Positions 657-23,737 of a stretch of 23,737 nt of DNA are shown here, piece by piece. The stretch's first letter is position 1; each line of letters starts with the position of its first letter. The notes under the pieces were generated by a model that was not told the origin of the DNA, did not search any database, and worked only from the letters and a program-made list of their open reading frames with translations. The DNA is from Desulfobacteraceae bacterium (GTDB taxonomy: Bacteria > Desulfobacterota > DSM-4660 > Desulfatiglandales > Desulfatiglandaceae), in contig CP070700.1 in the NCBI GenBank assembly GCA_020349865.1, positions 2,178,126 through 2,201,862 on the forward strand. The letters are read 5' to 3'. Both the position numbers and the translations under genes were made by a program.

Positions 657-723
657 CGTGATTACGTTTGTGCTATCTTTGAAATCTATTTTTCTCCAAA
701 CGTTCCTCATCGAGGGCCGATCG

Positions 724-4718: not shown

Positions 4719-5035
4719 CTAAATTCTCGTCTTAAAAAAGTAATGCCCATCATGAGATGAGGGATGGAAAGCCACGAATCTTAATATTTTCTGTTGACCT
4801 TCCATTTAAGGCATATATCCAGTTAAAAAGGAAAGCCGAGTTGCGGAGTGGGATATCATAAAGTTTACTTGCATGTGTGATGCTGCTTTCTTTTTCCGGG
4901 TTTACTTGATTGACTCTAAAGCACGCGGCTTAGGAAAGGAATGGATTTGTTCTCGAATTAAGTCCTCATATGGAATGAATTTACTTTTCCTGGTAATGCG
5001 TTTCTTTATATTAAAGGCAATTGGAGGGTATCCTA

Positions 5036-8000: not shown

Positions 8001-8290
8001 ATGTTTTAACGGCAAGAGATGGTAAAGAGGCCATAAAAATTTATAAGGAACACCAAGATAAGATTGATATCGTTGTCCTTGATATGATCATGCCGGAAAT
8101 GGGAGGTGGAGAAACCTATGACAGGCTGAAAGAGATCAATCCTGACATTAAGGTCATTCTTTCAAGCGGCTATAGTGTTGAGGGACAGGCAAGTGAAATA
8201 CTAAAACGTGGCTGCAATGGGTTTATTCAGAAGCCATTCCGCATGAAGCGGTTATCAAAAAAAATAGCGGAGGTTATGGAGAAGAAATAG
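5036..8290 (+). CDS. soluble multi-PAS/GAF hybrid histidine kinase
   Basis: A 1084-residue sensor kinase without membrane segments, so it presumably senses cytoplasmic signals. In order: a short coiled-coil start, PAS 1 (about 35-155), PAS 2 (170-280), GAF (295-455), PAS 3 (462-580), PAS 4 (590-700), a HisKA dimerisation domain with the phospho-accepting H729 in GGIAHDFNNLL, a HATPase domain with DTGVGMD and GIGLGLASAYG, and a C-terminal receiver domain with phosphorylatable D1016 (VVLDMIMPEM). The PAS modules are joined by near-identical linkers (ITERK-AEEALRESEEKYR type), which suggests internal duplication. The start is ATG 5036, seven bases after GGAGGG; the frame extends only to a TTG at 5021. 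No separate response regulator is adjacent, so the output partner is unknown. Element copy C lies upstream. Confidence 0.93.
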   Translation: MARNQTYDELKQKVKVLEKEAGNRKRAEEAQLESEQRYRLLADNVTDVIWIRDMNLRFTYISPSILKMTGYSVEEAMAFSLEYVYTPASIEVARNALAEELAIEKTGNANPFRTRTLELEGFCKDGSSIWTEAKMSFLRDQAGQAVGIFGVSRDITERKRAEEALRESEERYRSILETAPHSITITRVKDGRCLQVNEGFCQMRGYSREEVLGRTPFELNLYVNQEDREGIIKILKETGEVNGFEVQYQKRDGTAIDTLLSARPLEYENEDCLIAVVTDVTELKGAQQALRKRLAYEKMLADISTRAILIEDKDISRCLDECLEIMGKTFYVSRIYIFEYHHEPGTADNTFEWVSDGIAPQKENLQGIPMKKYSWWMEMMNNNKIINYKDIEDMPGEPEKELLRSQNIKSILVVPLFVNNAFYGFMGLDECRYHRKWLDEDVDILKTTAQIISNAFESKQAEESLRESEEKYRALFETAQDAIFLSDERGGFLDVNHAACESLGYTKEELLELCNKDIDADPRGYEAFVQVRDGLAENIRFDVDQRRKDGTLLPVEITGCFFTSGGQRISMAIARDITERKKAEEALRESEEKYRLLVENATDAIFVMQDEKVKFPNPRAMEIGRQLAVDLEQVPFMNYIHPEDREMVIERHKGRLKSDNVPSTYSFRLIGRDGEELWMELNAVLISWEGKPATLNLLRDITAQKKMETQLQQVRKMEALGTLAGGIAHDFNNLLMGIQGRTSMMMDMDSSQKYYNDLKGIEDIVKSAADLTNQLLGFARSGKYEVKPTDLNELIHKTSQMFGRTKKEIKIQTKYQKDIWAVEVDRGQIEQVMLNLYVNAWQAMPGGGDLYLQTDNVTLDENYAQPYKVNPGRYVKISVTDTGVGMDKATKEKIFEPFFSTKEMARGIGLGLASAYGIIKNHDGIINVFSEEDEGATFDIYLPVSDKEVIEEKKLPETVIRGTETVLLVDDEDMIIGVGEKILKRMGYDVLTARDGKEAIKIYKEHQDKIDIVVLDMIMPEMGGGETYDRLKEINPDIKVILSSGYSVEGQASEILKRGCNGFIQKPFRMKRLSKKIAEVMEKK

Positions 8291-8848: not shown

Positions 8849-8892
8849 AAACCCGGATTATGCAATAGGATGCTACCGCGCAATCCGGGTTA
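8849..8892. repeat. 10-bp inverted repeat hairpin
   Basis: AACCCGGATT at 8850-8859 is matched by AATCCGGGTT at 8882-8891 across a 22-nt loop. It overlaps the stop codon of the minus-strand gene at 8890. There is no T-tract on either side, so it is not a typical terminator. It may be a dispersed palindromic repeat or an mRNA 3' end-protecting structure. Confidence 0.5.
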
Positions 8893-9162
8893 AAAGTTAT
8901 ACGGTCGAGATTCTGACTGACACCCATAAAACCCTGTTATCTCGTCACCAAGAGATTCAAGGTAATCATTGAGCTCACTTTCACTGTCAAACCTGAGTGT
9001 GCTTACATGACCGGCTGCCCGTTCTATTTTGGCATCCGGACCCGATCTACACATTGCCTTCAAGAATTCATCAGGGTCATTATTGTATTTTTCGTTCAAT
9101 TCCTTTTCGCTAATGGCATTTCTTAATTGCCCATAACCGTCAAAATATAGGTAATATCTCAT
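8890..9162 (-). CDS. hypothetical protein, 90 aa
   Basis: A small acidic soluble protein starting MRYYLYFDGYG and ending in a Tyr/Phe tail. A good ribosome-binding site (GGAAGGGG) lies seven bases before the ATG, and the composition looks like a real protein: a mixed start, then charged helical stretches (SEKELNEKYNNDPDEFL, SESELNDYLESLGDE). I recognise no domain or motif. It stands alone on the minus strand, about 700 nt downstream of the large operon's last gene, and ends inside a 10-bp inverted repeat. Function is unknown. Confidence 0.65.
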   Translation of the reverse strand: MRYYLYFDGYGQLRNAISEKELNEKYNNDPDEFLKAMCRSGPDAKIERAAGHVSTLRFDSESELNDYLESLGDEITGFYGCQSESRPYNF

Positions 9163-9875: not shown

Positions 9876-10796
9876 CTATTCACGGGATCTGAGGTAAGCG
9901 AAAAATTTCTTCCAGAATATGGGTGTGAGCTTGTGAAGACGACGTCCCTGGTCGGTTCCAAAGACGAGCCATCCTATTTTACGGTGATATTTTAAAAACC
10001 AGCTGAACCTTGAAGTCGAGACTTTTCCCTTGCTCAAATACCAGCACCGAGGGGCCAGCATGGGCCGCCACTTTCTTGAGGCGAGCTTTAGAATTTCCAG
10101 AGCGGCGAGGCTGGCGACCATCCACTCGACAGGGCAGATGAGTGGTAGGGGGAGGTTTCCTTCAAAGTATTGCAAGAACCAGTCAACCCGCCAGTCCCCT
10201 GAAGTGATATAATGGTATTGGCCGCATTGGAATTCCTTGGTGTGAACTATGCTCAGAAGATCTTTATAGCCGAGGTTCGGCACCCCGAAGACGTCATCCA
10301 GGCTCGGAGTTTCATCCCTGAAGACACTCACCCAGCCCATTGATCCCGAAGGCAGACACAATATGGCAGGCTTCCTCTGTTTCCTTGCAGCGCGGAAGAT
10401 CAATACACTGTAAACGAGATCTTCAACCGCTGGTATTATTATATCGCCTTGAGCAATAAGTTGATCGAGAACTTCTTCTTCCGGCAGATGCGGAAATATT
10501 GTGACCTTTGCTTGAGGATTGATAGAAAGGATAGTGTCTTTTATATGTGCAGTCTTATTTTTCCCAATTGTATCTATAAAACAGCCGATCTGCCGGTTCA
10601 TGTCTGAGGGGACGTAGTTGTCCTGCCCGGCGATAATAAATTCCTCGAAACCTGAACGGGAAAGTATAGTGGATATGGTTTCGCCGGTGCCGGAATCTCC
10701 TATTATTACGACTCGGTTTTGCCTTATACGGTTCTGCTCATCGTCGCTGAAGATCCCGTAATTTCGTCTGAACAATGTTTGGTATGACAGACCCAT
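9876..10796 (-). CDS. E1-like (ThiF/MoeB/HesA family) protein, second copy, altered P-loop
   Basis: The last gene of the operon, 306 residues, is a paralogue of the gene just upstream. It has the adenylating-enzyme Rossmann fold, but the nucleotide-binding loop reads GDSGTG (33-38) instead of GxGGxG. The family's conserved NRQ (67-69), the following lysine (GKNK, around 81) and the aspartate in PAVED are kept. Cys-x2-Cys zinc pairs are absent. E1-like enzymes adenylate the C-terminus of ubiquitin-like sulfur carriers (MoaD, ThiS) or small peptides, but no such carrier is encoded nearby. I start at ATG 10796 because MGLSYQTLFRRNYGIFS aligns with the start of its paralogue; a TTG at 10811 would add five residues. 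Either start lies just after the previous gene's stop (10820). Activity may be altered or regulatory. Confidence 0.8.
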   Translation of the reverse strand: MGLSYQTLFRRNYGIFSDDEQNRIRQNRVVIIGDSGTGETISTILSRSGFEEFIIAGQDNYVPSDMNRQIGCFIDTIGKNKTAHIKDTILSINPQAKVTIFPHLPEEEVLDQLIAQGDIIIPAVEDLVYSVLIFRAARKQRKPAILCLPSGSMGWVSVFRDETPSLDDVFGVPNLGYKDLLSIVHTKEFQCGQYHYITSGDWRVDWFLQYFEGNLPLPLICPVEWMVASLAALEILKLASRKWRPMLAPRCWYLSKGKVSTSRFSWFLKYHRKIGWLVFGTDQGRRLHKLTPIFWKKFFAYLRSRE

Positions 10797-10819
10797 AAAA
10801 CACCGCTGCAATATTCAGA

Positions 10820-11779
10820 TCATAGGCCCTTACGAGAATTTTGCTGGCCCTGACGGTATTTCATCCACGGGTAATAAAGATTCCACCACATGGATTGTAA
10901 TCTTTCCTGAAAAAGTGCCAGTCGCGTCTGGAACACCCACCACATAAATCTTCTCTGCCACACGAGCAGGGTCTGAAGACATACCCTGTTGATGCGGTTG
11001 ACCCTGATTTTGCTCCTGGTAATATTCCAGTACAAAGGAGACATAACAGGGCTCCATTTACCACTCAGGAACTTCAGTGTTTCAAAGGCACCCAGGGATG
11101 AACAGAGCCACACTGTGGGGCAGATCTGCGTCGGCGGAAGACCTTGTTCTACGAAGCCGCGATAGTATTCAATCCGCCAGTCGGCCAAAAGGACGTAAAA
11201 ATATGTCCCCAGTTTGTACCTCCTTATCTCAAGGGTGTCATGAAGCTCTTCATACGAAGAAAGCTTAGGAAGACCCTCGATATCTTCGGGTGAAGGACCA
11301 TCCGGCGGGATAATGCTGACATTCGCCCATGTGCCAGAGGGGACAACCATCAAGGCTGTCTTTCCCAATCTCTTGGCATCTCGAAAGACAAAGGTGCTGA
11401 ATGCAAAATCATCGGCAGCAGGAAAAACAAGGTCAGTCTGAGGCATAAGTCTCGCAATCTCAGCATGCGTCATCTGATTCTCATGGACGGTAACTTCGGC
11501 TTCAGGGTTGATCCGCAATATTGTTTCTCTTATGGTCCGAGCCTTATTGCGACCGATGGTATTAACAAAGCAACCGATCTGGCGGTTCATATTGGTCGGG
11601 TCATACGCATCGAACTCACAGAGGACAAATCGACTGACTCCTGCACGGGCCAGGATGATGGCAACCGTTCCGCCAATGCCACCGCATCCAATAATCAGGA
11701 TCTTTGACTGCCTGATCTTCTCTTGCTCTTGTTCTGAGAAGATTCCATAGTTCCTCTGATAAAGCTCCTTATAATCCAT
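10820..11779 (-). CDS. E1-like (ThiF/MoeB/HesA family) protein, first copy
   Basis: A 319-residue protein with a canonical adenylating-enzyme loop GCGGIG (31-36). It also has the D-x-Y-D-x-x-N-x-NRQ motif (57-67), the conserved lysine in GRNK (79) and the aspartate in PAADD (about 123). In this family these residues bind ATP-Mg and form the acyl-adenylate. There is no zinc-binding Cys-x2-Cys pair and no rhodanese domain. The C-terminal 70 residues are unusually rich in Trp and Arg (QRRFMWWVFQ, MWWNLYYPWMKY), but the WxPxxxPxxW and WxVFxT spacing is shared with the second copy, so the frame is probably right. It starts 2 nt after the stop of the membrane-protein gene with AGGT before the ATG. 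A role in activating a sulfur carrier for pterin cofactor, or in modifying an operon protein, is inference only. Confidence 0.87.
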   Translation of the reverse strand: MDYKELYQRNYGIFSEQEQEKIRQSKILIIGCGGIGGTVAIILARAGVSRFVLCEFDAYDPTNMNRQIGCFVNTIGRNKARTIRETILRINPEAEVTVHENQMTHAEIARLMPQTDLVFPAADDFAFSTFVFRDAKRLGKTALMVVPSGTWANVSIIPPDGPSPEDIEGLPKLSSYEELHDTLEIRRYKLGTYFYVLLADWRIEYYRGFVEQGLPPTQICPTVWLCSSLGAFETLKFLSGKWSPVMSPLYWNITRSKIRVNRINRVCLQTLLVWQRRFMWWVFQTRLALFQERLQSMWWNLYYPWMKYRQGQQNSRKGL

Positions 11780-11781
11780 TG

Positions 11782-12432
11782 CTACCTGACCCTATGAGTT
11801 CTGAAAAATTTAATAGAAATTCGGCCATGCAACAGAGAAGAAAGGATACAGATGATAGCGGCACCGATAGCCAGGTAGTATGGTCTCATAAACTGCATGG
11901 TCACGTCCACCGGCACAAGGTAATCAATGACCGCATCCCCTGTCACAGGCACTTTAACGCGGTGAGTGGCAAACAGAATGGAACCATAGAAACCTGCGGT
12001 ATAAAAGAACATAAAAAGGCCACTCCACATCAAGACTAATTTCCCCTTTTTTCCTTCCATTGTACTGCCCCAGAAGGCGAGAAAGAGATATCCTGCCAAT
12101 GATAGAATCAGTAAACTCACTAATATCGGAGGCGTCTCGATAACAAACTCTAACCCATCGGGTGGCAAGTTATGTCGCAGGACAACGGGGTATGCCCTTA
12201 TCGTGGAGGAATTATTGTAGACACTTGCGAACCACCACGGGTAAAAAAGGGTCCCCGTGAACACAATGCCTGATATGAGACCCAAGGGATTGTAAAGGGT
12301 AAACTGATGGAAATGCCCCAGGAAGACTCTGAGGATGCCTTTCAATCCCTTTGAATCTTTGCCTTCCCGTTTCAGCCTCTCTTTGGTGGAATCATCAATG
12401 AAGAGTCTTATTACAAAGTCTAGAAATTTCAT
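11782..12432 (-). CDS. four-helix integral membrane protein, unknown family
   Basis: A 216-residue protein with a charged amphipathic start (about 1-40) and four likely membrane helices at about 47-72, 101-123, 132-155 and 185-203. A histidine-containing motif, GHFHQF (about 38-43), sits just before helix 1, and another histidine follows helix 3 (ATHRVK). These could bind haem b or line a quinone site, but that is a guess. I recognise no family. It starts one base after the TAA of the AOR-like gene, with AGGG before the ATG, and ends 2 nt before the first E1-like gene, so it is translated as part of the operon. It probably anchors, or exchanges electrons with, the surrounding Fe-S proteins. 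Confidence 0.82.
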   Translation of the reverse strand: MKFLDFVIRLFIDDSTKERLKREGKDSKGLKGILRVFLGHFHQFTLYNPLGLISGIVFTGTLFYPWWFASVYNNSSTIRAYPVVLRHNLPPDGLEFVIETPPILVSLLILSLAGYLFLAFWGSTMEGKKGKLVLMWSGLFMFFYTAGFYGSILFATHRVKVPVTGDAVIDYLVPVDVTMQFMRPYYLAIGAAIICILSSLLHGRISIKFFRTHRVR

Positions 12433-12433
12433 C

Positions 12434-13858
12434 TTAATCCCTCACGCCACGGCCATCCGGAATGGTCATTTTGTTAGTCGCTAATTCCCCGGACTGCAGC
12501 AGAAGTGAGCTCACTAAGGCACCAAGCCGCTCAAGGAGATATTCGACGTCTTTCTGCTCGTTGGAAACAAGGCCTAATAGCTCAGATGCCTCGATGTCCA
12601 GGAATGCGAGCATAAATAAGGGGCATATGCCCATAACCATTGCCACGGCCACACGTGTCTCCCACAGCCTGTTCCTGTCCTTACCCTGTCCTCGAATGAT
12701 AGGAGGTATCCCCCCGCCAAAGAGGCGACAGGTCTCAGGCCGTAAGTAACCGCTATGTAATTCAAGACTCAGGTCTTTATCGTCTGGTTTCCTATTCACT
12801 TCCCCGGCTTCTTTGGTCCCGGCAAGCCCTCTTACAAACTGGAGTGCCTCTTCAGAACTTCCCTCCAGCGGGAGTCCCTTGGCCGCTGAAACAGGATCGA
12901 CACCCAGATGGAGGCACTCCCTCATTAATGCAAGAGATTGGGAACCACGTTTCTTGGTTAACGCATAAAATCCGGTGTGATCAAGCAAGAACAGCCCTTC
13001 TTTTCTCTTAGATCCTCTCTTGACCGTTGGATCTTTTAATTTGAATTCCAGGTAGCTCGTGCAAGGAAACGGGCAATGATAACAGGCATAAGACCTCCTG
13101 TGATATCTTTTGAGGAGACTCATGGCATTCGAATTAACATTCATCATTTCAAATACAGCAAAGCGTGCCTTTTTACTTTTCCCAAGCACATCCTTTACGG
13201 CCCTTGTCATTGCGTGACCCGGTTCAATGCCAAAATCAGGGAATGAAATGCCCATTGAGGCACCCATAATGATCGCCTTAAGGTTTTTTGAGGCCATAAG
13301 GGAACCGAGGGAGACCTTGTCCATGCTGCCCCACAACCCAATAGAAAGGCAGGCGGCCTCTGAGCCGCTATCAGCAGCCGGGCCGGTAATAAGCATTGTG
13401 CCTGTGCCGAGCATGTTGGGGCCTGTCAGGGCCTCTTGTGCCTCAGGTATCTCAAGACCGGCGATACATTCTGCATCGGCTATGTTAATGATGCCCCCTT
13501 TCATCTCAATTGCCGAAAGGCGTGGTGCCTTTCCCTGAATCACTACGAAGTCTATACCTGAAAACTTCAAGTCCGGTCCTGCGTCTCTTATGAAGGGCAC
13601 GTGGTGGACTTCTCCACTAGAAGAATGAAAGGTTGCCACCATAAGGCATGATGCAGGAGCAAAGCTTCCTGTAAGAGGACCGGTTCCAAGCACTACGGGA
13701 TTGCCCTCTCCATACTTTTGATAAAGGACATTATTTACTGCGGCACCCCCAATGTTCTCAAAGAGTAAGTCTTCAGGCAGCGGTGACACCTCCACTGATC
13801 CTGCAGAAAGATCCACAAGAGCAATCCTGCCATTGTAGAATCCGGCTAACTGACCCAC
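12434..13858 (-). CDS. degenerate, shortened AOR-family protein
   Basis: A 474-residue paralogue of the full-length AOR encoded in the same operon (family usual about 600). Kept: the N-terminal pterin-binding fold (GTGPLTGSFAPAS at 58-70, SKNLKAI at 190-196) and all four cysteines expected for the [4Fe-4S] cluster, C259/C262/C266 (CYHCPFPC) and C412 (GIC). Lost or changed: the DPRG...RG.CHH segment near the active site, the first aspartate of both pterin-contacting DxxG motifs, and about 70 C-terminal residues. It may therefore bind a cluster without active cofactor and serve as an electron-transfer or scaffold subunit. I start at GTG 13858, placed 6 nt after GGGGAGG; an ATG at 13891 in frame has no such site. 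The start overlaps the upstream gene by 13 nt, which implies translational coupling. Confidence 0.82.
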   Translation of the reverse strand: MGQLAGFYNGRIALVDLSAGSVEVSPLPEDLLFENIGGAAVNNVLYQKYGEGNPVVLGTGPLTGSFAPASCLMVATFHSSSGEVHHVPFIRDAGPDLKFSGIDFVVIQGKAPRLSAIEMKGGIINIADAECIAGLEIPEAQEALTGPNMLGTGTMLITGPAADSGSEAACLSIGLWGSMDKVSLGSLMASKNLKAIIMGASMGISFPDFGIEPGHAMTRAVKDVLGKSKKARFAVFEMMNVNSNAMSLLKRYHRRSYACYHCPFPCTSYLEFKLKDPTVKRGSKRKEGLFLLDHTGFYALTKKRGSQSLALMRECLHLGVDPVSAAKGLPLEGSSEEALQFVRGLAGTKEAGEVNRKPDDKDLSLELHSGYLRPETCRLFGGGIPPIIRGQGKDRNRLWETRVAVAMVMGICPLFMLAFLDIEASELLGLVSNEQKDVEYLLERLGALVSSLLLQSGELATNKMTIPDGRGVRD

Positions 13859-15147
13859 GCCGTTACCTCCCCGGGAGAAGCCTTCTGCCACCTGAAACGA
13901 ATCTTGGAAGCCCCATAAGGGCAGCTATCAATGCACCTCATGCAGAGCGTGCATTCGGTCATGGGGACCTCAGGTGATATGCCCTCGGCCAAGGCCTCCT
14001 TTTCTACTATACCCATGGGGCAGACCTCAGCACATTGCATGCAGGAAAATTTCTTACACCTGTGAGCGCCGATAACAATCCTGATAAGTCCAAGTCTTGC
14101 GGTCAATGCCAGGAGCGCCCCCACCGGGCAAAAGTACCTGCACCAGCTCCGTCGCTCCGAGGACTCTAATCCCACCAGGGCGGGCACAATTGCCAGCTCA
14201 TATCCCCGGAAAAAGCCTTGAACCCCATGGGACCGGCACAGGGTACCTATTGGGCAGACCGTGCAAAAGGCCTGGAAACCCAAGGCATAACTCCCGCCAA
14301 TGGAGGCTGCGAAAACACCGTATTTGGCTGTCCTGGTTCGCAGAAAAGAGGGTAACCATTTCTTCTTGGGGATGAGTTTGCCAAAGAGGTCCAGGACGAA
14401 GCCAAAAGGACAGAGCCAGCCACAGAGAATCCTTCCCCCAATTATGGTCAGGATTACTAGAATAAGACCCGAAAACACGCTCATAAGGATAACGGTTTTA
14501 GAGGAGAAAATGTTCTGGATTACCCCTAAAGGGCAAGAAATCTGGAACTCCCCGGCTCGTAGCACACAAAAGGTACCCACTAAGATCATGACAAGCAGGA
14601 GGAAAGCGAAAATCTGCACGGGCCAGCGAAGCAATCGTATCCAGCCAAGGGCCTTCCCTCTTGAAAAGCTGATGGCCTGTTCAGGACAGTGCTCGGCGCA
14701 AAGGGGCTCATAATTGCACAGATCGCACTTGCGCACCTCTCCATTTCTTGGGTCTATAAGTGGAGCCGCCTCCGGGCAGGCCATTGTGCACAGGCCACAA
14801 TGAACGCAGAGCCTCTGACTGATACGCACAATATCATCTTCACCCTTTTCAATGGCCTTGGTTGGACAGACCTCCATGCAGTTCGGCTCACGGCAGTGCT
14901 GGCAAAAGATGGCAAAGACCTTGCCTCTGCCATCATCGCGTATCACCTTTATACTTGCAGATGAAGGTGACACCGGTGCCCCTTTTCTGCTGGAGCAGAC
15001 CATTTCACATGTGTGGCACCCCGTGCATTTGTCCGGATCGAGAACAATAGCGGGGGTGCGTTTCAAGGCCATTCGATCAAAAAGACGTCTCTTCTTCTGA
15101 TAACGAGGCCTTAAATTGTCAATAGTAAGAAGACCTTTTTCAGGCAT
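13846..15147 (-). CDS. fusion of four-cluster ferredoxin with NapH-like membrane Fe-S protein
   Basis: 433 residues in two parts. Residues 38-165 form a four-[4Fe-4S] ferredoxin of the HycB/DmsB type: CTGCHTCEMVC (41-51), CQHCREPNCMEVC (82-94), CVHCGLCTMAC (114-124), CDLCNYEPLCAEHC (141-154). Residues 170-433 are NapH-like: membrane helices at about 174-197, 216-238 and 275-295 plus further hydrophobic segments, CxxxCP motifs beside the helices (LCGWLCP, FCTVCP, WCRYFCP), and two C-terminal clusters (SCMQCAEVCP and CTLCMRCIDSCP). NapH-type proteins pass quinol electrons to a periplasmic NapG-like ferredoxin, and one is encoded in this operon. No Tat signal is present, so the ferredoxin part should lie in the cytoplasm, facing the Hdr proteins. 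The fusion would make a wire between the membrane pool and a soluble partner. Confidence 0.88.
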   Translation of the reverse strand: MPEKGLLTIDNLRPRYQKKRRLFDRMALKRTPAIVLDPDKCTGCHTCEMVCSSRKGAPVSPSSASIKVIRDDGRGKVFAIFCQHCREPNCMEVCPTKAIEKGEDDIVRISQRLCVHCGLCTMACPEAAPLIDPRNGEVRKCDLCNYEPLCAEHCPEQAISFSRGKALGWIRLLRWPVQIFAFLLLVMILVGTFCVLRAGEFQISCPLGVIQNIFSSKTVILMSVFSGLILVILTIIGGRILCGWLCPFGFVLDLFGKLIPKKKWLPSFLRTRTAKYGVFAASIGGSYALGFQAFCTVCPIGTLCRSHGVQGFFRGYELAIVPALVGLESSERRSWCRYFCPVGALLALTARLGLIRIVIGAHRCKKFSCMQCAEVCPMGIVEKEALAEGISPEVPMTECTLCMRCIDSCPYGASKIRFRWQKASPGEVTAWVS

Positions 15148-15207
15148 ACCGGAACCTTATTCCACTTGCGATTCTGATCCTCTCTCCATATAAGTGTCTC
15201 CAGATAC

Positions 15208-15663
15208 TCAGGCGTTTCTGCCCATATATTGAATCCGCCTGCAAGAGGGGCATATACTCAGATACTTGGAGGGAATTCCCTTCAACTTGTCATACAGGTA
15301 TTCGAACACTGGTACAGAGGCATACAGGGCACCGCATAGAGCGCATTTCTTGGGGTCCTTGACAAAGCCATCTGCCAGGGCAAGCCTCCTTAGACCTTTA
15401 ATCAGAGCACGGCAGCTCACCCCCTCGGGGCATATATCGGTGCCCCCGTTGCACTCAGTGCAATACCATATGCTTTCATCCTCTAGGACTCGGGGGGACA
15501 TCATCGCCTTTTTGATCACGCCCCGGGGTGACATCTCTATGGAGAAATTATGGTACATCTCGGCCATGGGGCAGACCGCGACACACTTCCCGCATTCTAC
15601 GCACCCGTAGGCACCCGAAGCCTTTGCAAGGTCAATGATTCTTGAGTCGTCTTGATGGCTCAT
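15208..15663 (-). CDS. HdrC-like iron-sulfur protein with incomplete second cluster
   Basis: A 151-residue HdrC-like protein. Cluster 1 is regular, CVECGKCVAVCP (C21, 24, 27, 31). Cluster 2 reads CTECNGGTDICP, so the third cysteine is replaced by glycine (position 74); C84, just after the PEGV that follows, might substitute. The C-terminus carries two more Cys-x2-Cys pairs (CALC 107-110, CPSC 138-141) that could bind zinc or another cluster. In heterodisulfide reductases HdrC links HdrA to HdrB, but HdrB is not encoded in this window. It follows the HdrA-MvhD fusion. The start is uncertain: I choose ATG 15663 because HdrC proteins begin close to the first cluster, but an ATG at 15726 and a GTG at 15738, directly after the previous stop, are also in frame. 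Confidence 0.8.
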   Translation of the reverse strand: MSHQDDSRIIDLAKASGAYGCVECGKCVAVCPMAEMYHNFSIEMSPRGVIKKAMMSPRVLEDESIWYCTECNGGTDICPEGVSCRALIKGLRRLALADGFVKDPKKCALCGALYASVPVFEYLYDKLKGIPSKYLSICPSCRRIQYMGRNA

Positions 15664-15739
15664 CCCTAAGTTCTCGGTATTTCTTCGGTGCCAGAATTCC
15701 TGGAATGCATGGCTTCTCCATACCATCAAAAAGATCACA

Positions 15740-17908
15740 TCACTGGATATGTCTTCTAAGCTGCTTCCTGAACCCGTGGACTGGCACCTTTTTTAATCTA
15801 TCTAAAAAGCCGATTAGAATCTCGGCGAATTGATAGGGTTCGTGGGCTTCTCCCCAGTTGATTAACAACCTGGTCCCGCCAATCCCCACGAAATCCAAGA
15901 AATCCTTTAAAAGTTCGAGGCGCCTTTGGGCGATATGATTGGCGTTGTTATGTCTGCACCCGCCTTGGTGACACCCCAATACCGCCACTCCTTCGATTCC
16001 CTTGGCCAGTGCCATTAGCACTAAACTGCTCTCTACCCGGCCGGCACACTCCACTGGGACTACCCGAAATGAGGCAGGAAGTGGAAACCTCCTTTTCCCC
16101 GCGCCGTGAAGACCGATAAAGCTGCACCACCTGCAGGCAAAGACTATTACCCTGGGTGACCCCCTATTTGAGGTTGAATCCTCCGTTCCTGCAATTCCTT
16201 CATGAAGGCGAGTCTCTTGCTGGAATGAATGTTTGATCATTTCAGCTATCGAATAAAAACTCTGCTCGGGTACTTGGATAGCTCCGCCCGGGCAGACCGC
16301 GACACAGCTCCCGCAGCCTTTGCACCTGAACGTATTGATCGCACTTAATTTTTCTTTTTCTTGAATATGGCACGCCTCAAACGGGCAAACTGAAACGCAC
16401 TTTCCGCAGCCTGTACACCGTGTGACATTGACCCTGGCCTTAAAAGGATGGGTATCAGGAAACAAACCGAGAGTGGATGCTTCAATATTTTCCCTTTTCA
16501 GAAAGGCGGCAGCCTTTATGGCGGCAGCCTCGCCCTGTTCAATGGCCTGATGCGCAGATACCGGCCATCTGACAGAGCCACAGATAAAGACCCCATCAGT
16601 GCTGGTCTCCAAGGGGTGAATAGGGTCATTGCCGCGGAAGAAACCATATCGGTCCAATTCAACTCCGAGCACCTTGGCCAGTCCGGGGTTATCCTTTTTG
16701 GGGGCTAAGGGAGTACTGAGCACCACCAGATCTGTGTCTATACTCCTGTAAGTGCCTGAGCTTACGTCCCACACTTCTACGACCTTCACTGCCCCATTTC
16801 CCTTTATTTGCGGTGGTCTTTTCTCATCATATCTTATTAGTAAGATGCCGCTTGAAAGGGCCTTACGGTAATATTCTTCCGCTATCTTGCCCGGTGTCAC
16901 AATATCACGATGTAGCACAAACACCCTTGAATCAGGTGTCTCTTCCATCAACCTCATAGCGTTCTTAAGGCTTGTCGGACAGCATATGGTGGAACAATAC
17001 GGTCGGCTTTGATCCCTTGCCCCCACACACTGGATAAAAACGATCTTCTTGGCCTGAACCGCCCCTTTCTTGAATCGTCTTTCAAGCTCCATCTGGGTGA
17101 TGACATTTCGGGATTCACCATATCCAAAAAGACCGTGTGGAATCACCACCCTGGCGCCAGTGGCAATTATGATCGCACCTGCCCGGAGAGAAAAATCTCT
17201 CCCGTCCCCTGCTAAATGCACCTTGAAATCCCCTACAACGCCTTCGGCGGAGAGGATTTTGGTCCTGGGATAAAATTTGATGAGTGGATTAACTGCCGCT
17301 TCATCAACGTATGGCTTCATCTTTTCGGAGGCGGTCTCATTTCCAGGAAATAACCGGGTAATCAGGTTAAGCATGCCCCCGGGTTTTCCGACCGTCTCAA
17401 CCAAATGGGTCTTAAGGCCGATTCGCGCCAAGGAACACGCTGCGGACAAACCAGCCGGGCCAGCCCCAAGGATCAAGGCCTCTGGACATACCTCTACCCT
17501 GGCATCCTCGGAATGTTCCTTGTGCTCCAGGGATGCCAGGCCCATATGGACCAGATCGTAGGCCTTTTGGTTGGCTTCCTCCGGTTCTCCACCATGAATC
17601 CAGGCGCATCCCTCCCTTATGTCCACGAGCTCAATGTCCGAGATACTTATGCCACTTTTCACAAGACCACTAATAATCAGACTGCCTCTTGATAACTGAG
17701 AACATGCAGCAACTAAGACCTTATCTTCACCAGTGTCCCTGATGATGTATGCGGCTTTATTCACATCTTTTTCAAGACAGAGAGACTCAAATATTTCTAT
17801 GCGAGAGACGTTAGCGCTCCTTTGCACTTTCTCCTTCAAATCAATAATCCTGATAGTTCCCTCGATTTCACCGAGGCATTTGCAGAGGAAGACGATGGGA
17901 CGCGACAT
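15740..17908 (-). CDS. hdrA: HdrA-MvhD fusion flavoprotein
   Basis: 722 residues. The HdrA N-terminal domain (1-130) contains AACS and REGCAWIH. FAD-binding GAGPAG is at 148-153, followed by GGML. A conserved HdrA stretch IQCVGARD...YCSTICC lies at 292-310. Two ferredoxin-type clusters are at 498-509 (CTGCGKCVSVCP) and 529-540 (CKGCGSCVAVCP). The C-terminal MvhD/FrhD-like [2Fe-2S] domain (586-708) keeps five cysteines: C592, C595, C621, C646 and C651 (CRWC, VECAGRV, GCHQGGC). In other systems HdrA is the flavin-based electron-bifurcating subunit, and MvhD brings electrons from a hydrogenase or formate dehydrogenase. No hydrogenase is encoded here, so the AOR or the NapGH-like parts are the likely donors or acceptors (inference). 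It lacks the YPT-x2-CxxC motif, which the neighbouring short HdrA has. The start lies 7 nt after the previous stop. Confidence 0.92.
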   Translation of the reverse strand: MSRPIVFLCKCLGEIEGTIRIIDLKEKVQRSANVSRIEIFESLCLEKDVNKAAYIIRDTGEDKVLVAACSQLSRGSLIISGLVKSGISISDIELVDIREGCAWIHGGEPEEANQKAYDLVHMGLASLEHKEHSEDARVEVCPEALILGAGPAGLSAACSLARIGLKTHLVETVGKPGGMLNLITRLFPGNETASEKMKPYVDEAAVNPLIKFYPRTKILSAEGVVGDFKVHLAGDGRDFSLRAGAIIIATGARVVIPHGLFGYGESRNVITQMELERRFKKGAVQAKKIVFIQCVGARDQSRPYCSTICCPTSLKNAMRLMEETPDSRVFVLHRDIVTPGKIAEEYYRKALSSGILLIRYDEKRPPQIKGNGAVKVVEVWDVSSGTYRSIDTDLVVLSTPLAPKKDNPGLAKVLGVELDRYGFFRGNDPIHPLETSTDGVFICGSVRWPVSAHQAIEQGEAAAIKAAAFLKRENIEASTLGLFPDTHPFKARVNVTRCTGCGKCVSVCPFEACHIQEKEKLSAINTFRCKGCGSCVAVCPGGAIQVPEQSFYSIAEMIKHSFQQETRLHEGIAGTEDSTSNRGSPRVIVFACRWCSFIGLHGAGKRRFPLPASFRVVPVECAGRVESSLVLMALAKGIEGVAVLGCHQGGCRHNNANHIAQRRLELLKDFLDFVGIGGTRLLINWGEAHEPYQFAEILIGFLDRLKKVPVHGFRKQLRRHIQ

Positions 17909-17915
17909 TGTTCTT

Positions 17916-19208
17916 CTACCGTTCTAGCTTAAATTTCTTGCAAAGGGCCTTCAGCGCTGCTGATGAAGCCTGAATGGATGATTCAATAACGTCAGCCGGT
18001 CCTGAGCTGAAACCGCAAGAAAGATCCGAATTGCCGTCTTTCTCATTGGCCAGAAAACCGTGGCTGTCTAAAGCCGGCATACCCTTTTGTCCAAGGTCCA
18101 TCTGGAGCAAACCGGGCCGCAGTGCCCCGTTTAATATAACCATATCAAACTTGCAGATTTTTACTTCCTGGGTCATGGTATCCTCGTACTTGATAGCTAA
18201 GCCCCCACCTTGTGGCAAGGAGAGGATCAGGCCTGGCCTCCCTCTAATTAGATTCAAGTGGTAATCCTTGGTGGCCTTTACGGCATATTCGTAGTAGTTT
18301 TTCCCAACGGTGCGCAGATCTGCAAAAAAGATGGCGCATTCGATTTCAGGCGCCCGTTTATTCACCCATTTCGCCTGTTTGAGTGCATGCATACAGCAAA
18401 CTGCCGAGCAGTAAGGGAACATCCTCATGTCCCTTGCACCCGCGCATTGGATAAAGGCGATAGCCCGAGGGGACGAAAGATCGGATTTCTTCCTGATATT
18501 TCCCCGGTTCGGCCCTGCCTCTGATATCCAAGTTTCAAATTCCATGGAATGCATAATGTCAGGATGGGTACCGCTCCCGAATTCCTGAAGCCTAAATAAG
18601 TCTACCTCTTGGAAGCCGGTCGCCCATATCACATCGTCTACTGTAATAACAATCTCTTCTTCGGCGCGATCGAGATCAATAGCATTGCTCGGGCATATCT
18701 CCTGGCACATGCCGCATCTGGTGCAGGTATCCTTATTGATCATGTATGAAGGTGGGTATGCATGATCCCAGGCCATTTCAACCGCGTGGGACAAAGAGGC
18801 ATATTCCTCAAGGTGGCAGAGTTCTTTTTCAACAGGACACACTTTTGCGCAGCGGCCACAAGAGATGCACTTTTCTTTGTCCACAAAATGAGGGCCCTTT
18901 ACGATGGAAACGTTCTTGTATTTTTCATACCCGGTCAATTCCATGACGCGAGCACGGGTGTGGACTGTAATCTTGGGGTGTTGAGTGCATTTCTTGATCT
19001 CTGTCCAGAGTGGACAGAATGCGCAATGGTCCGTGGGGTAAAGCTTGTCCAGTTTTGCCACCTGGCCGCCCAGATTGGGCTCTTTTTCCACAAGGTGCAC
19101 GATTCGGCCGGCATTGGCCAGATCCAGGGCTGCCACGATCCCGGCCACTCCGCCACCAACGACCATTACGGGATTTCCCCGTGTCTCTGTCCCAAATCGC
19201 ATAGGCAT
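17916..19208 (-). CDS. short HdrA-like flavoprotein
   Basis: 430 residues. FAD-binding GGGVAG (18-23) comes near the start, so the HdrA N-terminal domain is absent. It is followed by the HdrA cysteine motif YPTDHCAFC (57-65) with HPKI, two [4Fe-4S] clusters (CISCGRCAKVCP 114-125, CTRCGMCQEICP 162-173), and the conserved IQCAGARD...YCSAVCCMHA stretch near 258-278. It resembles HdrA/BamE-type proteins and complements the HdrA-MvhD fusion encoded next: this one carries the cysteine motif that the fusion lacks, and the fusion carries the N-terminal and MvhD domains missing here. The two may form a heteromeric flavin unit. It starts 5 nt after the stop of the NapG-like gene. A second in-frame ATG two codons later cannot be excluded as the start. 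Confidence 0.88.
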   Translation of the reverse strand: MPMRFGTETRGNPVMVVGGGVAGIVAALDLANAGRIVHLVEKEPNLGGQVAKLDKLYPTDHCAFCPLWTEIKKCTQHPKITVHTRARVMELTGYEKYKNVSIVKGPHFVDKEKCISCGRCAKVCPVEKELCHLEEYASLSHAVEMAWDHAYPPSYMINKDTCTRCGMCQEICPSNAIDLDRAEEEIVITVDDVIWATGFQEVDLFRLQEFGSGTHPDIMHSMEFETWISEAGPNRGNIRKKSDLSSPRAIAFIQCAGARDMRMFPYCSAVCCMHALKQAKWVNKRAPEIECAIFFADLRTVGKNYYEYAVKATKDYHLNLIRGRPGLILSLPQGGGLAIKYEDTMTQEVKICKFDMVILNGALRPGLLQMDLGQKGMPALDSHGFLANEKDGNSDLSCGFSSGPADVIESSIQASSAALKALCKKFKLER

Positions 19209-19213
19209 TTTTG

Positions 19214-19909
19214 TTAGGGGTTCCTTTTGACTATTTCGTAGTGCTCGGCCAGTGTCCTGATCCGGTTCACAAACCAGGTCTTGAAATCAGGGGGCGGGAA
19301 TTCATAGGGGGCCACACGATTTTCCAGACGCAGGGCAAACCTCTCCTCGGGGGGGGCAAACCGCTTGGCTCCCTCGTAGGAAATAATTATGGATTTTGGT
19401 TTTGTGGGGCACTTGCGCACACATATGCCGCAGCCATTGCATTTTTCCAGCTCAAGCACGGGAAAGCGTCTTTTCTTGAGCCTGAAGGCCTTGGTTGGGC
19501 AGGCCTTGTAACATACCTCGCATCGCTTCTTCTTTTGCCAGGCTAGGCATATGTCATGGTTGATTACTGCCGTGCCTAAATCTACTTTCTCCTTTGGAAT
19601 CTTCTTCAGCGCACCTGTGGGGCAGGTCCTGATACATTCCATGCAAATAATGCACTTGGTCACATCCATAACTGGTGTGCCAATGTTGCCGATGCCGTCA
19701 AAAATACCGGCAGGGCGAAGTGCCAGGGGCTGACACACGTCTATGCACTCAAGGCACCGGGTGCAAAAGCCCAGGAACTCCTCCTCAATTATTGCCCCGG
19801 GAGGCCGTGGTAGTGCCTCTGCCTTTTTCACCTTAAAGAGGGCTAAGATCCCCCCGGAAACTGTGCCACTTACAACAAAGTGCAGAAAACTTCTTCTGGA
19901 AATGCCCAT
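19214..19909 (-). CDS. NapG/MauM-like ferredoxin with Tat signal
   Basis: 231 residues. A twin-arginine signal lies at the very start (SRRSFLHF, R5-R6), with a hydrophobic stretch and a possible cleavage near KKAEA (about 32). Four [4Fe-4S] motifs follow: CTRCLECIDVC (49-59), CIICMECIRTCP (86-97), C121 with CEVCYKACP (130-138) and CNGCGICVRKCP (157-168). NapG/MauM-type ferredoxins act in the periplasm and receive electrons from a NapH-type membrane protein; such a protein is encoded four genes downstream. The gap to the AOR gene upstream is 120 nt, the longest inside the operon, and holds a terminator-like hairpin. Whether it serves the AOR or another acceptor cannot be told from sequence. 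Confidence 0.88.
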   Translation of the reverse strand: MGISRRSFLHFVVSGTVSGGILALFKVKKAEALPRPPGAIIEEEFLGFCTRCLECIDVCQPLALRPAGIFDGIGNIGTPVMDVTKCIICMECIRTCPTGALKKIPKEKVDLGTAVINHDICLAWQKKKRCEVCYKACPTKAFRLKKRRFPVLELEKCNGCGICVRKCPTKPKSIIISYEGAKRFAPPEERFALRLENRVAPYEFPPPDFKTWFVNRIRTLAEHYEIVKRNP

Positions 19910-19956
19910 GAGATTTGCTCAGCCACTCCGAGAACGGATCGTATTTATTTCTTTTA

Positions 19957-20003
19957 TAAAAAACAAGGGCGGTGGGGTCACCCGCTGGTATCCCCGCCGC
20001 CCC
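19957..20003 (-). terminator. intra-operon terminator or attenuator hairpin
   Basis: On the minus strand GGGCGGCGGGG (20002-19992) pairs with CCCCACCGCCC (19977-19967), 11 positions with one mismatch, around a loop of 14 nt. The hairpin is followed by TTGTTTTTT (19966-19958). This is a GC-rich stem followed by a T-run, the form of an intrinsic terminator. It lies in the 120-nt gap between the AOR gene and the NapG-like gene. It probably lowers transcription of the nine downstream genes relative to the first two, or marks an operon border. Confidence 0.65.
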
Positions 20004-20029
20004 ACAAGTAGTCATCCCGTGCTGGACTA

Positions 20030-21844
20030 CTATCCTCTCGCCGCATTTACGTCATCGATGGCGAAGTCAAGCCCGAGTTGCTTGAGAGTCTTGTCCGGGG
20101 GAAGGCCGTCGTCGGCCCATTCGAAATAGGCATAGTATTTGTCCTGCATCGCCTTCATTTCTTCTGGTGTGACAATAGCATCTTTCTTCGGACCTTCTGG
20201 TAGCTTTTCGGTCAAGAGGCGTTTGGGTAAAACGTCATCCTTTCGGCCTATGCCCTCTCGTGCATTAAAGCAGCGCTCTAAGGTAATGATCCGCTTTCCC
20301 GTAGTCCAGTACTCATCGTCTGTCATGTCCCAGCCACACAGTGGATTAAGCATGGCGGTATAGACTTGTGGAGTGACCTTGCCCCACGGATATCCTCCCA
20401 CGAACGAGCACATGACAAGGGAATTCAGCATGGCCCACTGGGCATGTTTCTTGGGGTTTGTGCCCTCGTGATGGCAGCCGCCCCTTTGGCCAAGGGCATA
20501 GCTGTAACCCCTGGCCTTGTCACCCCGCGGGTCATGGGCCGCGAGTTCCTGGCCCTTCACGTGGATGGCGTAATAGTCAGCGCCCTTGCCTATCTTATCT
20601 CCCATCCTCTTTACGCCCAGGGATAAGAGTTCCCCGGCTTTGCCATCTTTGTGGGCCACTTGGTCGATCAACTTGATCATCGCCCCTGTCTCGCCCCACT
20701 CCAGTTCAACGCCGTCAAGGTCATCATAGGTGAGGATCTTACGGTCTATCAACTCCATGGTATACCCGAGCACATTGCCCATGGAAATAGCGTCGACACC
20801 CATGGCATCACACATCTCGATGGACTTGATATAGCCGTCAAAATCTGACACCCCGCAGTTGCTGCCTAACATTGTACCGGTCTCATATTCAGGGCCTTCT
20901 GCCACAAGACCGCTGTAATCTCCTCCGCGTATTACCCCAACCTTCATGCAGTGGACAGGACAGTTCGGGCAAGAAAGGTGTTTCTTCCAGAATGTCCGTG
21001 CTGCCTCCTCTCCACCAATCCGCTCAATGTCAGGATACCAGGTGGTCTGGAAGTTCTTGGTAACTAAGGAACCACTGACCCAGTTTTTGAGCTCGAGCAG
21101 GCCTGCAGTACCCCATCGTTTTATGCCCTGCCAGGCCTCGAGATCCACAGCTAACTTCTTTGCTTTTTTTGCGGCTTCATGGAACTCCTTGTCGGCTGAA
21201 ATAGGTACAGACCCAGTGCCTTTAATGGCGATTGCCTTTAGTTTCTTGCTCCCCAAAACGCAACCGCCTCCACTTCTCCCTGCAGCACGGAAGCGATCAA
21301 CAATGAGACAGGAATAGGGCACTAAATTTTCTCCACCGGGTCCTATTACGATGGTCTTGACGTCAGGATCATTTAGGTCCTTCTTTATGGCATCATCGGT
21401 GGCATAGGTGTCCTTGCCCCAGAGCGTCTTTCTTGCATCCCTGAACTCAACCTTGTCATTGTTGATGTAGAGCCAAACGGGGAGGCGGGATTGGCCCTTT
21501 ATCAGGATGCCGTCCCAACCGGCCCACTTTAGCTCATTGGCAAAGTGGCCCCCTACTTCGGCATGACCGAAGATGCCAGTATGGGGGCTCTTCATGGCAA
21601 TGCTTAGTCGGGTTGCCGGGCAGTAAGTTCCATTCAAAGGACCTACTCCCAGAAACATAAAATTTTTCTCTGAGAGGGGGTCCGCCTTTGCTTCCAGCTC
21701 TGTGAAAAGGAAGTAGGCGCCTAAGCCAGAACCCCCAATGTATTTTCGGTAAATCTCATCGGAGACGCTACGCGCCTTATACTGTTTGTTCGAAAGATCG
21801 ATCTCTAAGATCTTTCCAAAATATCCGCCTTTGGGTGCAGACAT
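20030..21844 (-). CDS. AOR-family tungsten/molybdenum-pterin oxidoreductase
   Basis: 604 residues, the normal family length. It has the AOR N-terminal pterin fold (IGGSGLGAYFL near 36-46, GVGPLNGTYCPATR near 66-79, GSKKLKAI near 198-205). Cluster cysteines are C292/C295/C299 (CPNCPVHC) and C479 (NSLVMC). The motif DAMGVD is at 346-351, and a DPRG...RGGCHH segment is near 438-459. AOR-family enzymes hold a bis-tungstopterin and oxidise aldehydes or reduce acids or ring systems; the substrate here is unknown. The C-terminus (DDGLPP..TLKQLGL) resembles BamB-type and YdhV-type members. There is no Tat signal, but the gene upstream encodes a Tat-exported ferredoxin. The TAATG at 21852-21848 offers a start at 21850, but I choose ATG 21844 because AGGAGG lies 8 nt before it and only 2 nt before the other. 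Confidence 0.92.
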   Translation of the reverse strand: MSAPKGGYFGKILEIDLSNKQYKARSVSDEIYRKYIGGSGLGAYFLFTELEAKADPLSEKNFMFLGVGPLNGTYCPATRLSIAMKSPHTGIFGHAEVGGHFANELKWAGWDGILIKGQSRLPVWLYINNDKVEFRDARKTLWGKDTYATDDAIKKDLNDPDVKTIVIGPGGENLVPYSCLIVDRFRAAGRSGGGCVLGSKKLKAIAIKGTGSVPISADKEFHEAAKKAKKLAVDLEAWQGIKRWGTAGLLELKNWVSGSLVTKNFQTTWYPDIERIGGEEAARTFWKKHLSCPNCPVHCMKVGVIRGGDYSGLVAEGPEYETGTMLGSNCGVSDFDGYIKSIEMCDAMGVDAISMGNVLGYTMELIDRKILTYDDLDGVELEWGETGAMIKLIDQVAHKDGKAGELLSLGVKRMGDKIGKGADYYAIHVKGQELAAHDPRGDKARGYSYALGQRGGCHHEGTNPKKHAQWAMLNSLVMCSFVGGYPWGKVTPQVYTAMLNPLCGWDMTDDEYWTTGKRIITLERCFNAREGIGRKDDVLPKRLLTEKLPEGPKKDAIVTPEEMKAMQDKYYAYFEWADDGLPPDKTLKQLGLDFAIDDVNAARG

Positions 21845-21849
21845 GGCCA

Positions 21850-22557
21850 TTACCTCCTTTCGCCCTTCTCATTGGGATAGAAAAGGTTAATCTGGAGCGC
21901 CTCGACAGCCTCGTCAGGACTGACATTTCGGTACGCCATGTTGACACCAAATCCCACCTTGCCTGACCTGAGACATGGCCCCTGTGGCGTGCCAGACTGC
22001 TCTACGCATGCCTTGACGCATTCCGGGTCGCCATCACACAGGTCGCAGAATATGGGCCAACCAGTATCGGGATGGCGGCGCAGGTAACCGGCCGGACATG
22101 CCTCCATACACTTATTGCACTTGGCGCCCAAGCAGGTCTTGTCATCAATATACTTGATAGCGTGAGTCTTCTCATCCCTCTTAATGGCAACTGGCGTTGT
22201 TGGGCATGCCTTAATGCAAGGGGCATCGTCGCAATGCCAGCAGATGTTCGGAACATCTATGATGTTATGGTATCTCCGGACATGGACCTGGGCAACGGAC
22301 GGCCTGACAGTCCCTTCATGCTTCAAGGAACAAGCATACTCACAGGCACGACAACCCGTGCAGTTCTGACGTTCTGCAAAGAGGTATTTCATCTGCACCT
22401 TCTTTTCGGGCGGGGCGGCCTTGGCCCTTGGAACGCTGAAACCGCCTATTGTTGCCAGTGCTGTTACTCCACCGGCGGTTACAACGGCCCCCTTAAGAAA
22501 GCCCCGACGAGAAGTCTCCTTTCCTAAGATCTTTGGGGTTCTTCCTTCTTTCTCCAT
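21850..22557 (-). CDS. Tat-exported four-cluster ferredoxin (DmsB/HybA/YdhX-like)
   Basis: The first gene of the operon, 235 residues. A clear Tat signal (TSRRGFLKG, R17-R18) and hydrophobic segment lead to a possible cleavage after AKA (about 47). Four [4Fe-4S] motifs follow: CTGCRACEYAC (66-76), CWHCDDAPCIKACP (106-119), CLGAKCNKCMEACP (142-155) and CDLCDGDPECVKAC (171-184). Proteins of this kind pair with molybdenum- or tungsten-pterin enzymes as the electron-transfer subunit. Its stop overlaps the AOR reading region by one base (TAATG), so the two are probably made together and interact. GGAGG lies seven bases before the ATG. If the AOR is carried along by this Tat signal the enzyme would be periplasmic; the sequence alone cannot decide this. 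Confidence 0.92.
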   Translation of the reverse strand: MEKEGRTPKILGKETSRRGFLKGAVVTAGGVTALATIGGFSVPRAKAAPPEKKVQMKYLFAERQNCTGCRACEYACSLKHEGTVRPSVAQVHVRRYHNIIDVPNICWHCDDAPCIKACPTTPVAIKRDEKTHAIKYIDDKTCLGAKCNKCMEACPAGYLRRHPDTGWPIFCDLCDGDPECVKACVEQSGTPQGPCLRSGKVGFGVNMAYRNVSPDEAVEALQINLFYPNEKGERR

Positions 22558-23149: not shown

Positions 23150-23737
23150 ATCACAATTTCCGGGAAGGATCGTTACTTATTCAGCACCAGGCATTTCTTA
23201 GGGCGATTCAGTCTCTAGGTCGCCCAGAAGTCCTGGTCCAAAGCAATGGTAAGGTTGATAACGCGTTACAATAATTCTAAAGGACCCCACGTCCTGTTAC
23301 AGTTCAGTGAGCAGTTTGGTGTAATGACGACAATGGGAAAAATATTTCAGAAGAATCGGAAACTGAAGAAGCGATATGAGGAGATAAGGAACTCCGTGAT
23401 AGCAGATCAAACGGGGGGTCGATACTTCCGGAAATCCGTAATCCAGCGATTGCATGTATCTGCTATATATCCCCGTGATAATTTTGTCCGATAATTTTAA
23501 GATATTGTAAACATATCAGCACATCAATTATTTTATAAATTGACCTATTTCCCATCGGCCTTTGTACCTACCTTAACAGGGCGCGGTGTTGGATTCGCCA
23601 ATAATGCGGCATAGGTCTTCCTTGATTTACAACCGACTTCAGGCGTTAGCTCACCAAATATTAAGTTTTCAAGGGGCAACTCTTGTGTGAAAAGCCATTA
23701 AAAAAATCAAAAAAAGGATGAAAAAGCCTTAATATTG

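Follow-up and report, generated by a model that had tools for sequence, protein, structure and literature searches.

A conserved Desulfobacterota operon that joins AOR-family, Hdr and NapGH-like genes

One unanswered question about syntrophic anaerobes is how quinol electrons are passed on to formate or hydrogen, and an operon in the genome of a Desulfobacteraceae bacterium bears on it. The stretch analysed here (the window: 23,737 nucleotides, positions 2,178,126 to 2,201,862 of contig CP070700.1, assembly GCA_020349865.1) holds eleven open reading frames (ORFs; g1 to g11), confirmed in the ORF listing of the window and all encoded on its minus strand, between 22557 and 9876. They encode two proteins of the AOR family (g2, AOR1, and g8, AOR2), Hdr-like flavoproteins, NapG- and NapH-like proteins and a pair of ThiF/E1-like proteins. 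Together with its relatives, this operon unites an AOR with Hdr flavoproteins, formate dehydrogenase and a membrane protein of the quinone type, and makes one answer to the question testable. It is a real and conserved operon that combines known modules in a new way, and it is undescribed in the literature searched. We read g1 to g8 as one membrane-associated AOR-Hdr(-formate dehydrogenase) complex that would exchange electrons with quinone, with g9 to g11 as an add-on, a reading we hold about as readily as we doubt it.

Conservation of the operon and the formate dehydrogenase pair

The initial annotation, made from the window alone, had described eleven minus-strand genes with short gaps or overlaps, and the ORFs and outer coordinates found here match it. 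From g1 to g11 the gaps measure -1, 120, 5, 7, 1, 60, -46, 1, 2 and 8 bases; the -46 overlap of g7 and g8 is reduced to an overlap of 13 bases if AOR2 starts at codon 12, as it does in several relatives. Conservation of gene order in Desulfobacterota had been named as a check on the cluster. A profile of the AOR2 alignment, scanned against genome contigs, returned 40 loci, of which L026-L029 and L031-L040 match through an ordinary AOR, and the window proteins were mapped onto these loci and onto longer genome stretches, with metagenome-assembled genomes (MAGs) possibly incomplete. Synteny was counted on sufficiently long contigs only, that is, in the twelve genomes with ~10 kb or more upstream of AOR2 (G002, G003, G005, G006, G013, G014, G015, G016, G295, G430, G452 and G470). 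The core order AOR-NapG-HdrA-HdrA/MvhD-FdhB-FdhA-HdrC-NapH-AOR2 is colinear in all twelve, which belong to the same phylum, with the AOR truncated by the locus edge in G005, G006, G013 and G015; the contigs of L215 and L216 begin at NapH or HdrC. A g1 homologue precedes the AOR in each of the eight loci that reach that far. MvhD varies between genomes, being either fused to HdrA or a segment of its own. Because the core order recurs in every genome with a full view, chance juxtaposition of these genes is ruled out. The record titles assign the core-bearing loci to Deltaproteobacteria, Syntrophaceae, Syntrophobacterales, Desulfobacteraceae and similar MAGs.

The relatives also carry two genes that could not be seen from the window alone and that the initial annotation had missed. 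FdhB and FdhA lie between HdrA-MvhD and HdrC in 21 of the 21 genomes in which this stretch is visible (18 with both genes and three with FdhA only, at a contig edge); between g5 and g6 of the window the pair is absent, g6 following g5 after one base. The relatives' FdhA exceeds the cut-off of the Fdh-alpha equivalog model (839 bits vs 666), and its best solved match is the coenzyme F420-type formate dehydrogenase 9t1s (757 bits), with 648 bits for 7bkb. Its FdhB-like partner, of 294 residues, matches the C-terminal part of FdhB (7bkb_E, 112 bits), and no FrhB/FdhB Pfam family is listed for it in the domain scan.

Three phylogenies bear on how the window came to be without this pair. The AOR2 tree (45 rows: the window, 31 loci and 13 of P0001-P0120; long branches flagged) places the window within rows that carry FdhBA, where it falls in a group of nine together with G295 (100/99); two of the 19 rows labelled FdhBA have FdhA alone in view. 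In a joined tree of seven genes, built from one best segment per gene and thereby dropping MvhD in relatives, the window and G295, which has FdhBA, are joined (99.4/99). Since both trees place the window with an FdhBA-bearing genome, the pair was probably lost from the window lineage; in the AOR1 tree the seven other operon AORs group to the exclusion of the window (99/97), and single-gene trees differ, and on that account loss is favoured but not settled. Elsewhere, a Desulfobacteraceae contig (L019:3-3478) carries an FdhA-like frame (48%) after AOR2, with the same parts in another order.

The catalytic-type AOR pair and the probable pseudo-AOR

The operon opens with a small subunit and a large subunit. 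g1 (21850..22557) encodes a WorS-like Fe-S small subunit with a putative signal of the twin-arginine translocation (Tat) type, comprising a twin-arginine (RR) motif and a hydrophobic stretch, about four [4Fe-4S] motifs and Fer4 families; among solved structures it comes closest to the small subunits of AOR/WOR enzymes (WOR5 93 bits, AmWOR 93, AorA 90). By pattern search the RR motif recurs in five of nine relative loci, and the g1 anchor string was not found in the other four. AOR1 (g2, 20030..21850) is a WorL-like large subunit of the catalytic type, with matches to AFOR_N (236 bits, 4e-70) and AFOR_C (351 bits, 9e-105). Among nine solved structures it scores best with AmWOR1 (379 bits) and Pyrococcus AOR (363 bits), and BamB comes last (180 bits).

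The residues around the active site agree with this in part. The available part of PMC12096430 names Thr243, Glu313, Tyr427 and His448 as the second-shell residues of members that oxidise aldehydes, mentions one AOR in which the Tyr is changed to His, and describes YdhV and BamB as having an extra Cys ligand (Cys336 in YdhV) and as lacking the aldehyde second-shell residues. The equivalents of Thr243, Glu313 and His448 (T248, E323 and H460 in the window) and the four cluster Cys are kept in all eight aligned operon AORs, the equivalent of Tyr427 is His in all eight, and the segment from the cluster motif to the Glu column, in which YdhV has its extra ligand, is free of Cys in every one. In the YdhV row of the same alignment, Ala stands at the Thr position and Trp at the Tyr position. 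In the AOR1 tree the operon sequences group as a single clade (100/100) that does not include YdhV, the sole representative of clade 41 in this comparison, whose position is unsure on a long branch; AOR1 is 29% identical to it over 380 residues. By scores and tree, and less clearly by residues, AOR1 is closer to the aldehyde AORs than to either YdhV or BamB. The initial annotation had likened the pair to YdhX/YdhV or BamC/BamB, a likeness that is not supported: a BamB-type AOR is rejected by its last place among the solved matches, and a YdhV-type AOR, with less certainty, by the separate clade, the missing ligand Cys and the Thr kept where YdhV has Ala. In G430 (L139:3-6198), two tandem small-subunit/AOR pairs lie upstream of the operon, with 52% and 53% identity to the window AOR.

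At the other end of the core, AOR2 (g8, 12434..13891, its start probably at codon 12) had been called a degenerate second AOR. By sequence it does match AFOR_N alone (7e-31); its predicted structure nonetheless matches complete AORs along some 440 residues. The four [4Fe-4S] cluster Cys are kept in 24 to 26 of the 26 rows of its family, the equivalent of Asp338 is absent from all 26 and that of Asp489 is Met in 24. Judged on these residues and this predicted fold, AOR2 is a pseudo-AOR, a member of a conserved family that keeps the cluster Cys and has lost the pterin-anchoring residues, and that probably holds the cluster and not the pterin. The adjoining g7 (13846..15147) fuses an Fe-S domain like an AOR small subunit (residues 33-177, best match AorA, 91 bits; residues 33-167, WorS, 82 bits) to a NapH-like membrane domain (residues 184-423, 111 bits vs a cut-off of 234) with four hydrophobic segments. 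Because its N-terminal domain resembles AOR small subunits, g7 may form with the pseudo-AOR a second, degenerate small/large pair.

Proteins like AOR2 are also found elsewhere in the phylum. In evenly drawn samples, at an E-value of 1e-40 or below, they occur in at least 39 of 395 phylum genomes, a lower bound, as scoring stopped at the four or five top candidates of each genome, that includes a second pseudo-AOR branch and, among the weakest long-frame matches, perhaps a few true AORs; they also occur in 24 of 149 genomes from the order of G002, a set that overlaps the first. Nine distant members sampled from the second branch form one group (100/100). Its loci (L082-L108, L144-L148 and L175-L180) have open frames mostly of 425-536 aa, and by pattern search the cluster motif is present in some members and missing from others. 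For the 27 loci L082-L108, the flanks, which extend to about 1.5 kb at most, gave no match to any further window protein, and a BPL_N-like gene adjoins the pseudo-AOR in 15 of them. Second-branch neighbours are a Mo-oxidoreductase/Fe-S/NrfD set in L145 and cytochrome b6, Rieske-like and CCG genes in L146. With cluster ligands conserved, pterin anchors gone and a second branch elsewhere in the phylum, reuse of the AOR fold as a pseudo-enzyme is suggested.

AOR2 might instead be an assembly chaperone or regulator of AOR1 and no subunit at all. The lost pterin anchors, the overlap of its gene with that of the NapH-like protein and the distant pseudo-AORs at loci devoid of core genes, many beside the BPL_N-like gene, would suit such a role, but a chaperone has no need of the four cluster Cys that AOR2 keeps, and its neighbour g7 carries a domain like an AOR small subunit; we consider this role improbable.

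Electron-transfer proteins, the proposed complex and the ThiF block

Between the AOR genes lie the proteins that would connect the pair to flavins and quinone. g3 (19214..19909) is a NapG-like Tat ferredoxin (NapG model, 81 bits vs a cut-off of 269) with an N-terminal RR motif, found by pattern search in seven of nine relative loci. g4 (17916..19208), annotated initially as HdrA, is an HdrA-like flavoprotein in a short, QmoA-sized form: it aligns to residues 141-556 of the 777 of the HdrA2 model, at 337 bits. g5 (15740..17908) is a QmoB-sized HdrA-MvhD (FlpD) fusion (FlpD 113 bits, 1e-32; HdrA2 440 bits), and g6 (15208..15738), whose true start is possibly within the ORF, is an HdrC-like Fe-S protein of 176 aa (Fer4_8; HdrC models 42-48 bits). 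The solved relatives of g4 and g5 are HdrA and MvhD of methanogen complexes. The proposal, made at the outset, of a pterin enzyme linked with Hdr flavoproteins and with NapH/NapG-like membrane and Tat proteins is borne out by the family scans and the conserved order.

In size and domains, g4 and g5 are the same as QmoA and QmoB. In a 30-row tree (QmoA from nine of ten loci, L166 left out; 15 HdrA rows, five of them, of 824-930 residues, from merged matched ranges), the g4 homologues form a group of their own (100/100) outside QmoA (99/99) and the HdrA rows. g6 reaches 26 bits with the qmoC model, vs a cut-off of 300, is HdrC-like only and has no hydrophobic N-terminus. Membership in Qmo is rejected despite the matching sizes, with g4 outside the QmoA clade and g6 without the make-up of QmoC.

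If g1 to g8 form a single complex, its g1/g2 pair would carry a W- or Mo-bispterin site and would probably be co-exported through the Tat signal of g1. On the outside, electrons would move along AOR1-g1-g3-g7/quinone, with the Tat ferredoxin g3 and the membrane quinone protein g7 either receiving or supplying them; in the cytoplasm they would follow g7 N-domain/g8-g6-g4/g5-(FdhBA), ending in a two-flavoprotein Hdr module, with the pseudo-AOR as wire or scaffold. The Hdr module of the relatives includes FdhBA, which would make formate/CO2 their cytoplasmic couple. Lacking a formate dehydrogenase in its operon, the window variant must use another partner in its place, possibly ferredoxin or a formate dehydrogenase encoded elsewhere. 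Direction could be either way, from aldehyde oxidation to quinone and formate, or from quinol and a low-potential donor to the conversion of CO2 to formate. Two RR-bearing proteins (g1 and g3) and the small-subunit-like domain of g7 count in favour of this arrangement, as do the colinear core, the likeness of the relatives' FdhBA to the formate dehydrogenases of the methanogen Fdh-Hdr complexes, the three second-shell residues kept in AOR1 and the fold and cluster Cys kept in the pseudo-AOR. A more specific form, which we regard as unlikely, is a transmembrane machine in which the catalytic AOR pair sits outside, the degenerate pair serves inside as a cluster wire via the membrane quinone protein, and the Hdr module couples aldehyde/acid and menaquinol to formate/CO2; if true, working against the quinone potential to produce or consume formate would be within reach of anaerobes that are poor in energy.

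Several observations weigh against the proposed complex, and some of them lend themselves to other accounts. Every NapG, NapH, HdrA and HdrC model match falls below its curated cut-off, and for that reason these four names, where used for g3 to g7, denote relatedness, not membership. HdrB, which usually partners HdrC, was not found among the window proteins, with no CCG family in the eleven at an E-value of 0.01 (for g4, among the best 25 of 26 families). The case for AOR2 as a pseudo-enzyme is softened by a column near the uncertain Glu313 equivalent, E or D in 16 of 26 rows, which leaves remnant chemistry possible, and the loss of Asp489 counts less because that position is already Asn in seven of the eight operon AORs. 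AOR1 shows no signal of its own, so that its export rests on hitchhiking with g1.

This last point also suits an arrangement with all redox parts in the cytoplasm, in which the Tat-like N-termini of g1 and g3 are anchors and an AOR-Hdr bifurcating enzyme is docked on a quinone-feeding NapH. The HdrC-like protein without a hydrophobic N-terminus fits it as well, as do flavoproteins and FdhBA related to the methanogen Fdh-Hdr complexes, which are cytoplasmic. The RR motifs of g1 and g3, however, recur across the relative loci, and in the available text of PMC13328260 a small subunit of the Tat type is the mark of an exported Class V WOR; we judge the cytoplasmic arrangement rather unlikely.

A further difficulty concerns the substrate. 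The YdhV row of our alignment shows E and H in the Glu313 and His448 columns, as AOR1 does, in contradiction to the available part of PMC12096430. The residue test consequently separates AOR1 from YdhV less than do the tree and the scores, and E and H alone are no proof of aldehyde chemistry. AOR1 could then act on a non-aldehyde substrate, as BamB does, with low-potential electrons supplied by Hdr bifurcation, the more so as an AOR beside HdrA/MvhD recalls class II benzoyl-CoA reductase and the hosts include Syntrophaceae MAGs. Against this stand the Thr and the Cys-free ligand segment of all eight operon AORs, the weak match to BamB and the absence of BamGHI-type (Nuo-type) and Complex I 51K-type families among the eleven proteins, which leave a non-aldehyde substrate very unlikely and an aldehyde substrate the one we would favour for the g1/g2 pair.

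The last three genes form a block of a different kind. g9 (11782..12432) encodes a membrane protein without a Pfam family, predicted to fold as four helices and a beta sheet; g10 (10820..11779; ThiF 129 bits, 2e-37; 238 relatives) and g11 (9876..10811; ThiF 97 bits, 1e-27; 37% identity to g10) encode ThiF/E1-like adenylyltransferases. Across 27 aligned rows, g11 included, G31, G34, G36, D57, R66, Q67 and K79 are invariant, which we take to be the MoeB/ThiF nucleotide-binding and adenylation residues. As to a MoaD/ThiS carrier, the two small ORFs scanned beyond the eleven genes, at 8890-9162 and 23246-23494, gave no family, the ORF listing covering frames of 80 aa or more. The E1-like pair had been counted as part of the combination; it is present in the window operon but is not integral to the core, close homologues of the pair occurring in five of the 26 core-bearing genomes searched. 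In G016 (L138:15758-17743) a single open frame of 662 residues encodes both ThiF proteins, and P0122, of 434 residues, runs past ThiF1 into a ThiF-like stretch.

It is doubtful, though quite conceivable, that the E1-like pair and g9 have a function of their own and were brought into the operon of this lineage by chance. Their small share of the core-bearing genomes, the presence of the ThiF pair in at least two genomes without AOR2 (G092 and G369) and its position on the strand opposite the core in relatives fit such an origin. Yet the block adjoins the core in G002, G016, G018 and G470, and ThiF genes beside AORs are interpreted as cofactor maturation in the available text of PMC13328260 and PMC1779556. 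We read the block g9 to g11 as a separable add-on, most likely for cofactor maturation. In G470 (L211:10239-13014) the ThiF genes, of which ThiF1 is broken into pieces, have MobB and a DUF364/DUF4213 heavy-metal-chelation protein as neighbours and are divergent from the operon; in G369 (L133:15012-19998) the surroundings of the pair include a NuoF-like/Pyr_redox fusion of 1015 aa with FdhA-like frames after it, a formate dehydrogenase arrangement of another kind.

Outside the operon, two large genes lie on the plus strand of the window, one for a guanylate cyclase/AAA_16/TPR protein (649-4068) and one for a PAS/GAF histidine kinase with a receiver domain (5021-8290). The GC fraction is 0.506 across the operon and 0.448 in the preceding 9875 bases; scans of the window gave no tRNA and no Rfam family at gathering score.

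Comparison with known systems

The initial annotation had suggested an uncharacterised combination, and no described complex of such make-up was found in the literature searched; nor was a description of the operon, which is weak evidence with subscription journals mostly uncovered. A supplementary neighbourhood table of PMC13328260, outside the literature searched, could list it. Identity with the benzene 'Magic' cluster (PMC13101534) was rejected, the terms aldehyde, AOR and ThiF being absent from its available main text.

Five known systems share parts with the operon. Class V WORs of the YdhV/WOR41 type, as presented in the available text of PMC13328260, have a large/small pair, a Tat-type small subunit and membrane-linked extra genes, and occur in Desulfobacterota; a Tat signal and/or a transmembrane segment in the small subunit defines the class, and g1 has such a signal by motif. 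AOR1 is unlike them in having no Cys in the YdhV segment and in not grouping with YdhV, and Hdr, Fdh and pseudo-AOR genes are not described in that text. Class II benzoyl-CoA reductase (Bam) likewise combines an AOR-family enzyme, a small Fe-S subunit and Hdr/MvhD-like proteins, whereas AOR1 is not BamB-like by score and the operon adds NapGH-like proteins and a pseudo-AOR.

On the flavoprotein side, QmoABC resembles the operon in its short HdrA and HdrA-MvhD of the same sizes and in an HdrC part. The operon differs in that g4 has its own clade, g6 is HdrC only, with no HdrE part, and a NapH-like membrane protein stands instead. The FdhAB-MvhD-HdrABC complexes of methanogens (7bkb, 9t1s) share HdrA, MvhD and HdrC and, in the relatives, FdhA and an FdhB-like protein; the operon, in contrast, has no HdrB found, has HdrA twice (short and fused) and adds an AOR and NapGH-like proteins, and in the window it lacks FdhBA. 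The NapGH quinol dehydrogenase, finally, pairs a Tat polyferredoxin with a four-helix membrane ferredoxin as g3 and g7 appear to do. No NapA or NapC was recognised among the eleven proteins; g3 and g7 stand apart by their scores (81 of 269 and 111 of 234 bits), and the NapH part of the operon is fused to a domain like the small subunit of an AOR.

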